A DNA stretch of 64,000 nucleotides from Nitrospirota bacterium (GTDB taxonomy: Bacteria; Nitrospirota; Thermodesulfovibrionia; Thermodesulfovibrionales; UBA6898): positions 682,001 through 746,000 of the forward strand of contig JACRMT010000004.1 of assembly GCA_016214855.1 (NCBI GenBank). The letters run 5' to 3'. The translations under genes and the position numbers were made by a program. Shown in pieces: positions 58,039 through 64,000 of the stretch (position 1 is its first letter; every line of letters starts with the position of its first letter). The notes beneath the pieces are model-generated. The model was not told the origin of the DNA, made no database searches, and saw only the letters and a list, made by a program, of their open reading frames with translations.

Positions 58039-59154
58039 TTACGGAACGTCAGGATAGGTTATCTTCAGCTCTTCGCCGCTCAAGGCATCAACAAGAAATG
58101 CCTTAAGCATTTTCTTCTCTTCTTCACTCAGACCGAGAGGCTTGAGATATTTATTTCCCTTTCCACCGCCTGCATTAAAGAACTCGATCACCTCATCGAG
58201 TGATGCAAAGACGCCGTTATGCATGTAAGGTCCCGTTCGCGACACCTCACGGACCGTGGGAGTCCTGAACGCCTTCCAGTCCTCCTTCTTCTTGGTGATC
58301 AGATAACGGCCCGGATCTTCCTTCAGACCGCGATAATTTGGATAATGGTATACCTTGGCCACAAATCTCATGGTAGCTGTTACGCGGGGATCATTTAACA
58401 GAACAGGATTTTCAGGGACATTCAGGGCATAAAATTTATCGTCTGACAAATTTGGACCATAATGGCACTCTATACATCTTCCTTTGCCCCTGAATATCTC
58501 AAATCCCTTTTTGGCTTCTTCAGAGAGTGCCTTGTCTTCCCCCTTAAGAAATGTATCGTATGGTGCATTCAGCGAAACAATTGTCCTCTCAAAGGCTGCG
58601 ATTGCCATGGCAATGCGCCCGCGCGTCGGCTCGCCGCTAAAGACCTTATTAAACGCTTCGACATATTCAGGAACAACGCGTATCTCCTCCTCCACAAAAT
58701 CGAGGTTTTGGTTCATCTCAAATGCTGACATCATGGGAAACAGGGCTTGATCTTCGAGCATCTTTACCCTTCCGTCATGAAACAGGCTCTTGTACATACC
58801 GACATTGTAGAGGGTTTGGGCATTGCGCCAATTTCTGGTCGTGGGATAACTTTGAGAGATATCCTGTCCATCAGCAAATCCCTGTTCAGGCACATGGCAG
58901 GTGGCACAGCTTGTGGTGCCGTCACCGGAAAGCCTCCTGTCGAAGAAAAGCTTCTTGCCGAGTTCTATCTTCTCTGCGGTCTGGGGGTTGTTCTTCGGAA
59001 TGGGCACTGACTTGAAGGGTTCAAGATGACCGGCAGAGGAGATAGAGGTTAAGGCTAAGGTTGAGAGCAAGACAGCCAGGAAAAAACCTCTAAAGAAGTT
59101 CCTAAACCTCAGCCTGAGCCTAAACCTCTCAGTTTGCCTGCTATCGCTTCGCAT
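58039..59154 (-). CDS. di-heme cytochrome c peroxidase/MauG family
   Basis: A 371-residue exported di-heme protein. An unusually Arg-rich n-region (RFRLRLRFRNFFRG) leads to the signal helix. The first heme motif CATCH (Cys83-His87) is followed by VPEQGFADG, and the second is CIECH (about residue 229) followed by YGPNLSDDKFY. The conserved RTPTVREVSRTGPYMHNGVFASL is present (first part RTPTVREV). It likely reduces hydrogen peroxide with electrons from cytochromes. The start overlaps the selenoprotein-like DsbA gene by 14 bases. Confidence 0.92.
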   Translation of the reverse strand: MRSDSRQTERFRLRLRFRNFFRGFFLAVLLSTLALTSISSAGHLEPFKSVPIPKNNPQTAEKIELGKKLFFDRRLSGDGTTSCATCHVPEQGFADGQDISQSYPTTRNWRNAQTLYNVGMYKSLFHDGRVKMLEDQALFPMMSAFEMNQNLDFVEEEIRVVPEYVEAFNKVFSGEPTRGRIAMAIAAFERTIVSLNAPYDTFLKGEDKALSEEAKKGFEIFRGKGRCIECHYGPNLSDDKFYALNVPENPVLLNDPRVTATMRFVAKVYHYPNYRGLKEDPGRYLITKKKEDWKAFRTPTVREVSRTGPYMHNGVFASLDEVIEFFNAGGGKGNKYLKPLGLSEEEKKMLKAFLVDALSGEELKITYPDVP

Positions 59155-59734
59155 TCTTCAGTTCCTCCTCAATGATCTGCTTCAGATACTCATACGGCCT
59201 GTTGCCGACGATCTTCCTGCCGTTGATAAAATATGTCGGCGTGCTGTACAGGTCCATGTCAAAGGCAAGCTGCTTGTCTTTCTCGATCTCTGCCGAGTGT
59301 TTCTTGCTGTCGATAGATGCAGTAAACAGCTTCATATCAAGGCCGAGTTCCCTGGCGTATCTGACAAGACTTTCACGATCAAGTTTGGGCGAGTTCTTAA
59401 GCAGCAGGTCATGCATCTCCCAGTATTTCCCCTGGTCTCCGGCAGCAAGGGAAGCCTCTGCAGCTATATGGGCATAGTCGCGATATTTGTACGGATAGTT
59501 CTTGATGACAAGCCTGACCTTGCCCTTGTATGCATCGATGATCTTCCTGACGACCGGACCGGCCGCCACGCAGTGCGGTCATTGGAAGTCGATGAATTCT
59601 ACAATTGTGACCGGAGCATCTTTGAGTCCCTTTTGGGGGGATTCCCCGACAGGGATCGTAAACCGCTTCTCTTCAGCAGAACCGACAGAAATAATCAGGA
59701 GCAGAAATACCATTACAGCTCGCAGGAGTTTCAT
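59141..59734 (-). CDS. DsbA-like thioredoxin, probable selenoprotein (UGA at the active site)
   Basis: The gene reads as 197 codons from the ATG at 59734 (GAGGTG upstream). Codon 52 is TGA, at 59581-59579, and both sides are in the same frame. Upstream are a signal peptide (about 1-20) and the first strand APVTIVEFIDFQ; downstream are PHC, then a helix with VVRKIIDAYKGKVRLVIKNYPY, and the cis-proline STPTYFINGR. The active site therefore reads FQUPHC, with selenocysteine replacing the first Cys of the DsbA-type FQCPxC. A SECIS-like hairpin follows. It lies between the formate dehydrogenase operon and an overlapping di-heme peroxidase gene. A point nonsense mutation is the alternative. Confidence 0.85.
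59549..59581 (-). promoter_or_regulatory. bacterial SECIS-like hairpin after the UGA codon
   Basis: On the minus strand the UGA (59581-59579) is followed by 11 bases, then GGCGGCC (59567-59561), a GGUCC loop and GGUCGUC (59555-59549). The stem has 7 pairs, two of them G-U. The loop carries the G-U dinucleotide needed by SelB and begins 18 bases after UGA, within the range known for bacterial SECIS elements such as fdhF. Confidence 0.7.
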
Positions 59735-59792
59735 ATGTCACCTCGGCAGGTGCGGCCCGAACGGGAACGATCCGTTCAGGCCGCATATCCGG

Positions 59793-60935
59793 CTATCGTT
59801 TAGCTTCTTCGTATGAAAGCACGTTAAAATACTTGCAGGCAAATTTAAAGAGAAATATTCCCAATGCCACGAGAAACAGGGTGACCATAAACTCGTTGGT
59901 CGTTGGGAAATAGCTTATGCCTTTTCCCTTGGCATGCCTGAGGAGGCCGAAAATACCGACATTCATGCGGTTGATCACGACGCCGATAATAACAAGGGAA
60001 TTCACCAGCAGTATACTGTTTAAGCTGCTCCGCATGGCAGGTATAAGCAGCAGACACAGGGGGACGATAACACCGACAGCCATCTCAAGCAGATAGAGCC
60101 TGGACTCCATACTGCCGTCAAAAGCAACAGCAAGCCCGGGGCCGTTCAGAAGAACGAATACCTTCAGCACACAGTAAAATCCGAGCGCAACGATCGATCC
60201 TCTTGCAAGACCTGAAAGAATGCCCATATTGGCCTGATGCTTGAAGAACTTGGAGCTCAAAATAGATTCGAAACTGACCATCGAAAGTCCCATCATGATG
60301 GCAGAGACCAGGAAGCTGAACGGCAGGAGACTGCTGTACCAGAGCGGATGAAGTTTGTCAGGCACGATCAGATAGACCGCTCCCAGGGAAGACTGGTGAA
60401 GGGTCGAAAGGAGCGTGCCGAAGAGCGCAATAGGCATCATGATCCTCTCGACAAACCTCTGCACACCTTTTAGCCCGATCCGTTCAAAGAACATGGGGCT
60501 CGACTCCATCGCAAGGACCGTCGTATAGATGACCACATGTATCGCGACAATGAACATGATCGAGTTGATCTGCCACATGACCATGGGATGCCATATCCGA
60601 AACGGATGGCCGATATCAAGGAATATTCCGGTTGCTGCCAGCAGGTAGCCCAGAAAGGCGGTCAGGATCGCAGGCCGTGCTATCGGTTTGTATTTCTTCA
60701 TATTAAAAAGGTATACCGCACTGGCTATCACAAACCCGCCTGCTGCCATGGCAACACCTCCCAGGACATCAAATCCTATCCAAAACCCCCAGGGGAAATC
60801 ATCCTGCAGATTTGTTGTTGCGCCAAGTCCGAGGGTCATCCGTTTATATACAGAGAAAGCTCCGGCGATTATAATTATCAACAGCCCCAGCGTCATCGGG
60901 GTAAACATTTTTATTTCATGACGTTCCGTGCTCAT
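59793..60935 (-). CDS. NrfD/HybB-type membrane subunit of formate dehydrogenase
   Basis: A 380-residue membrane protein with about ten helices, NrfD family: TTNLQDDFPWGFWIGFDVLGG, then DIGHPFRIWHPM, and INRMNVGIFG near the end. In this operon it replaces the diheme cytochrome b subunit (FdnI) of the E. coli enzyme as quinone reductase. It overlaps the iron-sulfur subunit gene by 4 bases behind AAGGAGG. Confidence 0.88.
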   Translation of the reverse strand: MSTERHEIKMFTPMTLGLLIIIIAGAFSVYKRMTLGLGATTNLQDDFPWGFWIGFDVLGGVAMAAGGFVIASAVYLFNMKKYKPIARPAILTAFLGYLLAATGIFLDIGHPFRIWHPMVMWQINSIMFIVAIHVVIYTTVLAMESSPMFFERIGLKGVQRFVERIMMPIALFGTLLSTLHQSSLGAVYLIVPDKLHPLWYSSLLPFSFLVSAIMMGLSMVSFESILSSKFFKHQANMGILSGLARGSIVALGFYCVLKVFVLLNGPGLAVAFDGSMESRLYLLEMAVGVIVPLCLLLIPAMRSSLNSILLVNSLVIIGVVINRMNVGIFGLLRHAKGKGISYFPTTNEFMVTLFLVALGIFLFKFACKYFNVLSYEEAKR

Positions 60936-61765
60936 TCGTCTCCCTCCTTATCCATGTTCTGATTTCTTCTGGTGATGACCCAGCTTCCTATGCCTGCAGC
61001 GAGCACAACACCGATGATAGCAGGGATTCCCGATATATACTTCCAGGTCAGATCCGGAAGCACCTGCTCACTGACTTTCGCATGGCCAATCTGGTCAAGG
61101 GGAATTGCAGAAAGAAGCATCACCGATGTGCCACCTGCTTCTTTTTCGCCATAGATATGGTTGTGATATTTCTCAGGATGCTCGGCGATCCTCTTTTTCG
61201 CCTCGGTCAGGCTCTTTTCGATGCTGTCGTTGAAGGTGATCGTGCCAGTCGGGCAGCTCTTTGCACACGCAGGCATCATGCCGGCGAGCAGCCTGTCATA
61301 GCAAAAGTTGCATTTCTGTATCCTTGGCGATATCTTTTCCCACTCATATTTCGGGACATTGAAAGGACAGGCAAGCATACAATACCTGCAGCCTATGCAG
61401 CGTCCCTCCCGGTATATGATCGGTCCTTCAGGGGTCTTGACCAGCGCTTCAACAGGACATACCGAAACACAGGCAGGCTTCTTACAATGAAAACAGCCGT
61501 TCCTGGCAAAGTTCCAGTTCACCTCACCGCCCTTTTCACCCTCAAAAAAAGCAATATTGGTATATGTCTTGGAATTCAGCTTCGGAGGGTTGGTGAACGT
61601 GCTGCCCATAACGGTTTTGTCCGTCTGGTTTTGGTTCCATTGTTTGCAGGCGATCTGGCATCCCCTGCAGCCGATGCATTTTGTGGTATCAACAAGAAAG
61701 CTGGCCTCCATCTTCTTTGTGCCTATGGCAGCCACGGGTGCTGTTGTTTTTGTCTCTGTCGCCAT
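60932..61765 (-). CDS. fdnH: formate dehydrogenase iron-sulfur beta subunit
   Basis: A 277-residue subunit with four ferredoxin clusters: CIGCRGCQIACKQWN, CFHCKKPACVSVCP, CIGCRYCMLACP and CNFCYDRL...CAKSCP. A C-terminal membrane helix (IPAIIGVVLAAGIGSWVI) anchors it, as in FdnH/FdoH. It carries electrons from the molybdenum subunit to the membrane subunit. GGAGG precedes the ATG, 9 bases after the alpha subunit stop. Confidence 0.92.
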   Translation of the reverse strand: MATETKTTAPVAAIGTKKMEASFLVDTTKCIGCRGCQIACKQWNQNQTDKTVMGSTFTNPPKLNSKTYTNIAFFEGEKGGEVNWNFARNGCFHCKKPACVSVCPVEALVKTPEGPIIYREGRCIGCRYCMLACPFNVPKYEWEKISPRIQKCNFCYDRLLAGMMPACAKSCPTGTITFNDSIEKSLTEAKKRIAEHPEKYHNHIYGEKEAGGTSVMLLSAIPLDQIGHAKVSEQVLPDLTWKYISGIPAIIGVVLAAGIGSWVITRRNQNMDKEGDE

Positions 61766-61774
61766 ATCGCCCTC

Positions 61775-64000
61775 CTATGCCTTTGCCTTTTCGATATTGA
61801 CCATAAAGGCCTTGGACTCCGGGATCATGGTATTTGCATCCCCGATCGTCGGCGTCAGAAGATTCGCCGACTCTCCCGCGCTGCCGTCCTCCGGATACTG
61901 CCACCCGAAGTGATACGGTAAACCGACCTGGTGAACAGTAGAGCCTGCGATTTTAAAGGGCTTCAGCCTTTTCGTCACCATGGCAACGGCATTTACCTCT
62001 CCGCGGCCTGATCTCACGATCACCCGTTCTCCTGCACTGATGCTCTTTTCTTTTGCAAGTTCCTCGCTCAGCTCGACAAAAAGCTGGGGCGCCGTCTCAA
62101 GAAGCCAGGGCATATGGCGCGTCAGAACGCCGGTCTGCCAATGCTCGGTCATGCGGTAGGTGGAAGCAACGAACGGATACCGCGTATCGCAGGAATAGAA
62201 GATATCCTCGGCAGCACCGCTCTTCCCGTCATGGAACAGCTTTACCGCAGGGTTTATCTTGGTCTTGGACATCAGGTTTTCCTGGAGCGGGCATTCGAGC
62301 GCTTCATAATGCTCAGGGAATGGACCGTCAGCAAGGCCGGGGCCGAAAAGGGCACCCATGCCATCAGCCCGCATGATGAACGGATTCTTCCCCTTCTCGT
62401 CCGCCATAGGAGGAGCAGGCCCGTCCGGCACATCGCCGTCCCATCCGGGAGCAACCTTATTGGTCTTCGGATCCAGCTTATTGGGATTCCATTTGACAAC
62501 TGCGCGTTTCGGGTCCCATGGCTTTCCGGTCATATCGACCGATGCGCGGTTATAGATGATCCTCCTGTTCACCGGCCATGCAAAAGACCACTCAGGGAAG
62601 AGTCCGAGACCTGTCGGGTCAGTCTTGCCTCTTCTGGCCATCATGTTGATCACTTTGCCCTCCTTCTGCGTATAGCTGCCACTGTAGATCCAGCAGCCGC
62701 AGGAGGTAGTACCGTCAGCCTGAAGGCTTACAAAGTTCGTTGCCAGTTCTCCCTTCTTGCCAACAGGAGCAGGCGGCGTCTTTGTCTTGTCAAAAATATC
62801 GTCCAGATAGTAACCGTTGATCTCTTTTGCCACAAGATGGACATCAAACTCCTTTGCCTTGGACTTATAGTTCCAGGTGGTCTTTATTACAGGCTCCGGA
62901 AATTTTCCACCCTTTGTCTGATACAGTTTCTTTACCCTGTGGTGAAGTTCATTAATGATCTCGCCATCAGGCTTTGACTGCCCGGCCGGGTTAACCGCAG
63001 CATACCGCCACTGAGCCCAGCGGCCTGAGTTTGTGATGCTCCCTTCCTTTTCGACTGATGAAGAGCAGGGCAGCATGAAGACCTCGGTCTGGATATCCTT
63101 CGGAACCATACCCGGACCTCTCCAGAAGGATGCGGTCTCATTATCAAACAGATTTACGTTCACCATCCATTTGAGCTTTGCCATTGCCTTACGGGTCTTG
63201 TTCGCATTGGCGCCTGAGCAGGCAGGGTTCTGACCCCAGGCAAAGAAACCCTCGAACTTACCCTTGAACATCTGGTCAAAGAGCATGAGCCAGGATGCAT
63301 TCATCCCCTCATCGATCTTGGGCAGCCAGGCATAACCGAAGTCATTATCCTTTGTGGCATGATCACCATAAATGGCCTTAAGATAGCTGGTGATATACTT
63401 GGGCCGGTTGCCCCACCAGTTGACGCTCTTGGGATCCTTGGTCTTGGGTGTGTTCTTTTCAATATACGTCTTGAGGTCAACTGCCGTAGCCGTCGGAACC
63501 GGCACATATCCCGGCAGGATATGGAAGAGGAGCCCGTAGTCAGTAGATCCCTGAACATTCGACTCACCTCTGAGGGCATTCACACCGCCGCCTGCCATGC
63601 CGATATTGCCGAGCAAAAGCTGAATGATCGCCATGGTCCTGATGTTCTGCGTACCAACCGTATGCTGGGTCCAGCCCATGGCATAACACTCAGTGCCGAC
63701 CCTGTTCGGTCTGCCTGTGGAGCCGTACACCTTGTAAACCTCTGTCAGCTTATCCTTCGGCGTGCCGGTAATGGCAGAGACCTTGTCGAGCGTATAACGT
63801 GAATAATGCTTTTTCAGGAGCTGGAATACGCAGTTCGGATCCTTGAGGGTCATATCTCTCTTTGGGAGTCCCTTATCATCCATCTGGATGGACCAGCTCT
63901 TCTTGTCATACTTCCTTGCCTTCTCATCATATCCCGAGAAGACCCCGTTAAGCTGGCCCGGCATCTTGAAGTCAGAGTTTATCAGGTAGGATGCGTTTGT
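61775..64000 (-). CDS. fdnG: formate dehydrogenase alpha subunit, N-terminal part outside the window
   Basis: The last 741 residues of a molybdopterin oxidoreductase of the FdnG/FdoG type, open to the window edge. Seen are ECYAMGWTQHTVGTQNIR, GNIGMAGGGVNALRGESNVQ (with QGSTDYG following), FFAWGQNPACSGANANKTR, and the C-terminal molybdopterin-guanine-dinucleotide fold (HWQTGVLTRHMPWL, GERVIVRSGRGEVNAVA). The active-site Sec or Cys and the Tat signal lie beyond 64000. It oxidises formate; with FdnH and the NrfD-type subunit it passes electrons to quinone. Confidence 0.93.
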   Translation of the reverse strand, partial: TNASYLINSDFKMPGQLNGVFSGYDEKARKYDKKSWSIQMDDKGLPKRDMTLKDPNCVFQLLKKHYSRYTLDKVSAITGTPKDKLTEVYKVYGSTGRPNRVGTECYAMGWTQHTVGTQNIRTMAIIQLLLGNIGMAGGGVNALRGESNVQGSTDYGLLFHILPGYVPVPTATAVDLKTYIEKNTPKTKDPKSVNWWGNRPKYITSYLKAIYGDHATKDNDFGYAWLPKIDEGMNASWLMLFDQMFKGKFEGFFAWGQNPACSGANANKTRKAMAKLKWMVNVNLFDNETASFWRGPGMVPKDIQTEVFMLPCSSSVEKEGSITNSGRWAQWRYAAVNPAGQSKPDGEIINELHHRVKKLYQTKGGKFPEPVIKTTWNYKSKAKEFDVHLVAKEINGYYLDDIFDKTKTPPAPVGKKGELATNFVSLQADGTTSCGCWIYSGSYTQKEGKVINMMARRGKTDPTGLGLFPEWSFAWPVNRRIIYNRASVDMTGKPWDPKRAVVKWNPNKLDPKTNKVAPGWDGDVPDGPAPPMADEKGKNPFIMRADGMGALFGPGLADGPFPEHYEALECPLQENLMSKTKINPAVKLFHDGKSGAAEDIFYSCDTRYPFVASTYRMTEHWQTGVLTRHMPWLLETAPQLFVELSEELAKEKSISAGERVIVRSGRGEVNAVAMVTKRLKPFKIAGSTVHQVGLPYHFGWQYPEDGSAGESANLLTPTIGDANTMIPESKAFMVNIEKAKA

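Follow-up and report, generated by a model that had tools for sequence, protein, structure and literature searches.

DsbA-like proteins that carry selenocysteine (Sec) in a UxxC motif have been known since 2005 and form part of the Sargasso Sea set of selenoproteins (PMC1088965). DsbA-like and DsbG-like UxxC forms have also been reported elsewhere (PMC1794560, PMC13188914), among them a "DsbA-like protein form 1" with the domain PF01323 (PMC13188914). Here we describe a related gene in a 64,000-nt window (the whole stretch of DNA analysed, positions 682,001 to 746,000 of contig JACRMT010000004.1 in assembly GCA_016214855.1) from an uncultured Nitrospirota bacterium, in which codon 52, a UGA, would be decoded as Sec within a conserved operon; we place the probability of this reading at roughly 90%. 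The predicted protein shares with the known UxxC selenoproteins (PMC1088965, PMC13188914) the DsbA-like fold, the motif itself, and a Sec that replaces the first Cys of the active site. Whereas those proteins are described as families with widespread Cys homologues, the clade described here is Sec-only and bound to its operon.

The gene lies on the minus strand (59141..59734), beginning with an ATG at 59732-59734 that follows a Shine-Dalgarno sequence, GAGGT, recognised by reading (59740..59744, minus strand). In direct translation the frame is open to its stop except for a single TGA (59579..59581, minus strand), giving a product of 197 residues with residue 52 as the Sec of a U-P-H-C active site in the context DFQ-U-PHC-VAAG. 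A first-pass annotation of this DNA had proposed that an in-frame TGA stands where the first active-site Cys would be (FQ-U-PHC), which proved correct in every detail, and had warned that ordinary gene callers would cut the gene at the GTG at 59569; the shortened frame is present in the list of open reading frames and is what such callers would report. Standard gene calling truncates the selenoprotein and removes its active site. The hydrophobic N terminus, MKLLRAVMVFLLLIISVGSA, is a predicted signal peptide of about residues 1-20 (59675..59734, minus strand; cleavage site placed by eye), and the protein is probably exported. Pfam assigned Thioredoxin_4 (94.6 bits) and DSBA (77.5 bits), and an AlphaFold2 model computed with 41 homologues as input adopts a DsbA fold (pLDDT 91.5), with a helix predicted at residues 2-17, inside the signal-peptide region. 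Foldseek comparison with the PDB placed alpha-DsbA2, BdbD, and ScsC among the best matches, with closest E-values of 4e-13 to 1e-9. The defining features of DsbA-like thioredoxins (PF01323/PF13462) are all recognisable, namely a thioredoxin fold with helical insertion, a CxxC-type site, and a cis-Pro loop, the last located by sequence at TPT, where T165-P166 is invariant in the alignments.

The UGA occupies the catalytic position, is flanked by open frame on both sides, and is kept in homologues. TGA was found at the Sec codon in 64/64 full-length order-level homologues, down to 49% identity and in frames that are otherwise open, which places the codon beyond chance. The same was true of all 79 readable loci of named GTDB genomes, a set that overlaps the first; none of these loci has Cys, and one of the two search patterns used for them was built on Cys codons. 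A phylum-wide profile search showed a gap in scores: every match above about 270 bits carried TGA, and most matches under about 200 bits were Cys proteins. Second in-frame TGAs noted in three genomes (G417, G428, and G230) are terminal stops. It had been expected that relatives would show either TGA or TGC/TGT at this codon: TGA was indeed found in the homologues, but Cys never occurs in the operon-linked subfamily, and Cys relatives appear only in outside groups. Cys homologues are customary in discovery pipelines for selenoproteins rather than a requirement.

These comparisons bear directly on the reading of the locus as a pseudogene, a sequencing error, or a plain stop, in which case the TGA would be a nonsense mutation and translation of the real product would begin at the GTG. 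TGA is a stop elsewhere, and a gene caller would report the GTG frame, but the comparative data refute this reading. Every homologue in both sets has the TGA with intact frames on either side, across two phyla and free of disabling changes, the surrounding residues Q51, P53, H54, and C55 are invariant, and the SECIS described below is conserved. We regard such an origin as very improbable.

The host genome (3.3 Mb, 23 contigs, completeness 100) carries adjoining selA (616 bits) and selB (375 bits) genes, a selD gene (343.5 bits) that itself contains an in-frame TGA, and a 94-nt tRNA-Sec scoring 70.9 bits, above the gathering score. All components of bacterial Sec insertion sought by the first-pass annotation (SelA, SelB, SelD, and tRNA-Sec) are therefore present. 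Their presence also argues against reassignment of TGA in this genome, for example to Trp, a reading that has only the open frame in its favour and is already refuted, since TGA serves as the terminal stop in relatives and the codon falls at the position of the DsbA nucleophile Cys, not at that of a Trp; its probability is close to nil. In the reading that we prefer, SelB and tRNA-Sec would decode the UGA of codon 52, directed by a hairpin just past it, to produce the U-P-H-C active site.

A predicted bacterial SECIS hairpin lies directly downstream of the UGA (59550..59566, minus strand), with a stem of six pairs and a GGUCC loop (59556-59560) that contains the expected G and, as first noticed from the sequence, starts 18 nt past the TGA. 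The SECIS of Escherichia coli fdhF has the same loop spacing, with GGUCU there and GGUCC here, 18 nt past the UGA, but its lower stem is of another sequence, and a conserved lower stem is absent here. Folding of the single sequence is unremarkable (z-score -0.13), a GGTC placed 18 nt past a TGA is in itself nothing unusual (it follows 11 of the 2749 TGA triplets in the window), and Rfam gave no SECIS family match in the hairpin region, the matches listed being chance. Because single-sequence folding was not significant, the hairpin was assessed by comparative analysis (covariation, slide controls, RNAalifold, and wobble conservation). In an alignment of 58 distinct sequences, pairing is seen in 88.8% of stem cells, against 20-51% when the partner strand is slid. 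Both sides have changed in 24 stem cells, compared with 12.1 in shuffles, none of 500 of which gave so high a number, and one stem position retains its pairing as G-C, U-A, A-U, and C-G. The number of stem pairs is 5.37 of 6, compared with 4.15 in synonymous-codon simulations. Moreover, the stem-loop codons 57-61 are the gene's top five in wobble conservation (z 11 to 23, relative to simulations from local codon usage), so that coding constraint alone does not explain them. The conservation is uneven: roughly half of the sequences lack the pair at stem columns 17/31, and a C-A mismatch stands beside the loop-closing pair in 11. It is the comparative evidence, rather than the hairpin alone, that carries the case, and together with the sel genes and the conservation of the TGA it strongly supports the initial suggestion of a probable selenoprotein.

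The genes around the selenoprotein gene all lie on the minus strand. Upstream are an NrfD-like membrane subunit (59793..60935; PF03916), replaced by FDH-gamma in some relatives, an iron-sulfur subunit of the FdnH/HmcB type (60932..61765; HmcB 229.8 bits and FDH-beta 170 bits, both under the cut-off), and the formate dehydrogenase-N alpha subunit FdnG (TIGR01553, 1425 bits), which runs from 61775 to the window end at 64000 and on to 64942. The first-pass annotation had pointed to a possible TGA in fdnG beyond position 64000, and a single in-frame TGA is present there, at codon 206, the expected Sec position (64325-64327; L048 6326-6328). Downstream is a di-haem cytochrome c peroxidase or MauG-like gene (58039..59154; CCP_MauG 164.7 bits), whose first 14 nt lie within the selenoprotein gene, an overlap of about the usual length among relatives. 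The two genes are probably translationally coupled. No terminator-like site was found on this strand between the NrfD and peroxidase genes, and we infer that the selenoprotein gene is co-transcribed with the peroxidase gene within the formate dehydrogenase operon.

This arrangement is widely retained. The peroxidase gene lies directly downstream in 77/77 named loci and in 59 of 60 testable order-level loci; the exception, in genome G016, has tandem selenoprotein copies and no peroxidase in the stretch examined. The second of those two copies (L100, G016:C1:24488-25792) reads U-T-H-C. FdnG is found upstream in most loci (59/64 and 36/52 in the two sets), and the codon at its Sec position is a stop in 89/89 readable FdnG neighbours, while the f11 genomes keep the peroxidase partner with formate dehydrogenase not adjacent. 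In many loci FdhE comes next, and one genus and some other loci have a gene identified as MoeA-like by visual inspection of its sequence. Around distant relatives, in both Cys and Sec forms, neither formate dehydrogenase nor peroxidase was found (0/11 scanned neighbourhoods). An apparent selenoprotein-peroxidase fusion in a single open frame (L108, G114:C15) was set aside, since a one-base sequencing indel in the seven consecutive A at the junction is an equally likely explanation. The near-constant position of the gene between a Sec-containing formate dehydrogenase and a two-haem peroxidase suggests that the three proteins work together. One operon would thus tie two selenoproteins, formate dehydrogenase and DsbA, to a haem peroxidase in anaerobes of two phyla, including the cultivated carriers Desulfopila aestuarii DSM 18488, Desulfofustis glycolicus DSM 9705, and Desulfoprunum benzoelyticum DSM 28570.

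The nearest solved structures to the peroxidase are bacterial cytochrome c peroxidases, and it retains both CxxCH motifs and a FEMN motif. Tyr103 is invariant and Phe325 near-invariant at sites that we take to align with the distal His and axial Met of bacterial peroxidases; with these residues at apparent ligand sites, its chemistry may be unusual, perhaps MauG/MbnH-like. In the alignment no Cys is conserved beyond the two haem motifs, so that an obvious thiol target is not visible in the peroxidase. This last feature is of interest for a different role of a genuine selenoprotein, in the handling of haem cysteines, whereby the CxxCH Cys of the peroxidase and other c-type cytochromes would be kept reduced before haem attachment with electrons fed by CcdA/DsbD. 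Such a role would fit the strict association of the gene with a c-type protein of two haems, whose only conserved Cys are those of its haem sites, and the occurrence of DsbD-type proteins in a genome unmatched for DsbB or VKOR. However, the known haem-Cys reductases, CcmG and ResA, have a TlpA-like rather than a DsbA fold, ccm genes were not recognised beside the selenoprotein gene, and the linkage with formate dehydrogenase is left unexplained. We consider this role unlikely.

The redox partners encoded in the genome are equally relevant to a second alternative, that the selenoprotein functions as E. coli DsbA does, as a general disulfide oxidase of the periplasm. The two share a fold and a CPHC-type active site, including the PH dipeptide found in E. 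coli DsbA. DsbA and Bacillus subtilis BdbD work with DsbB/BdbC-type partners, but no family match to DsbB or VKOR was found in this genome, which has two DsbD/CcdA-type proteins, and the partner of a classical DsbA-DsbB system is thus not recognised here. This absence is one of family matches. Across the 176 genomes of the order, DsbB is nearly absent, exceeding the cut-off in 3, and VKOR is patchy, exceeding it in 17. The lack of a recognised DsbB or VKOR makes a general oxidase less likely, the gene is confined to one operon context, and the nearest structures include BdbD, alpha-DsbA, and ScsC, which mix oxidases and isomerases. We would assign a general oxidase function only a small probability.

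We instead favour, tentatively and at somewhat less than even odds, a selenol-disulfide oxidoreductase serving to maintain the activity of the exported formate dehydrogenase and di-haem peroxidase module, its exact substrate being a guess. As a member of the Sec-only clade, the exported DsbA-fold protein would act within the operon of the Sec-containing formate dehydrogenase, where it might reduce or isomerise oxidised Cys or Sec in the module or trade electrons with the peroxidase. Its role would lie in protecting, reducing, or assembling that module. Weighing against this role are the peroxidase's lack of conserved Cys outside its haem motifs, the f11 genomes, in which formate dehydrogenase is not adjacent, and the G016 locus with its tandem copies and no peroxidase. 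The first-pass annotation had envisaged a periplasmic oxidoreductase "perhaps for cytochrome or peroxidase maturation, next to a formate dehydrogenase"; the conserved operon with both enzymes bears out the association, while the substrate of the selenoprotein is still putative. In a more speculative form, which we think doubtful, the selenoprotein and peroxidase would constitute a dedicated periplasmic redox relay operating without DsbB or VKOR, in which the haem enzyme trades electrons with the selenol (e.g. by peroxide-driven recharging) and both jointly protect or activate the Sec-containing formate dehydrogenase.

In a phylogenetic tree the operon-linked Sec proteins form one clade (support 100/99) in which Nitrospirota and Desulfobacterota are mixed, which suggests that the clade spread by horizontal transfer. 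Beyond this clade the tree alternates between Sec and Cys forms. Further DsbA-like selenoproteins with UPYC or UPFC motifs occur in the phylum near the NCBIfam family NF041057 (L119, L120, L122, L123, L221, L222, L125, and L126); this group also alternates between Sec and Cys and has hairpin-like sequences of its own past the TGA. Another UPYC protein (L214, G315:C123) branches beside the clade without the operon and is a possible intermediate.

In the literature searched, we found neither an operon link for known DsbA-like UxxC selenoproteins nor any report that joins formate dehydrogenase, cytochrome c peroxidase, and selenoproteins; coverage was incomplete, and an earlier description of the operon is possible. 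The Sec-only DsbA clade and its operon therefore appear new with respect to that literature, although priority is not proven. A Sec-only clade with a near-invariant genomic partner offers a testable function for a class listed as "predicted, function unknown" since 2005.

Compared with described families, the clade is set apart from "DsbA-like protein form 1" by description only and may be the same form. The best NCBIfam match is NF041057 (DsbG-like / Rcas_1661 thioredoxin-like (seleno)lipoprotein), which shares the thioredoxin fold and UxxC motif. Membership was rejected because the protein scores 96.4 bits where the cut-off is 190 bits; the signal region of the selenoprotein has no Cys and hence no lipobox Cys, and the NF041057-related proteins of the order (L120, L126, and others) branch apart from the clade and are without the operon. 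With E. coli DsbA, B. subtilis BdbD, alpha-DsbA2, and ScsC, the protein shares the fold, the position of the CxxC site, and the cis-Pro region, but where those proteins have Cys, the selenoprotein would have Sec.
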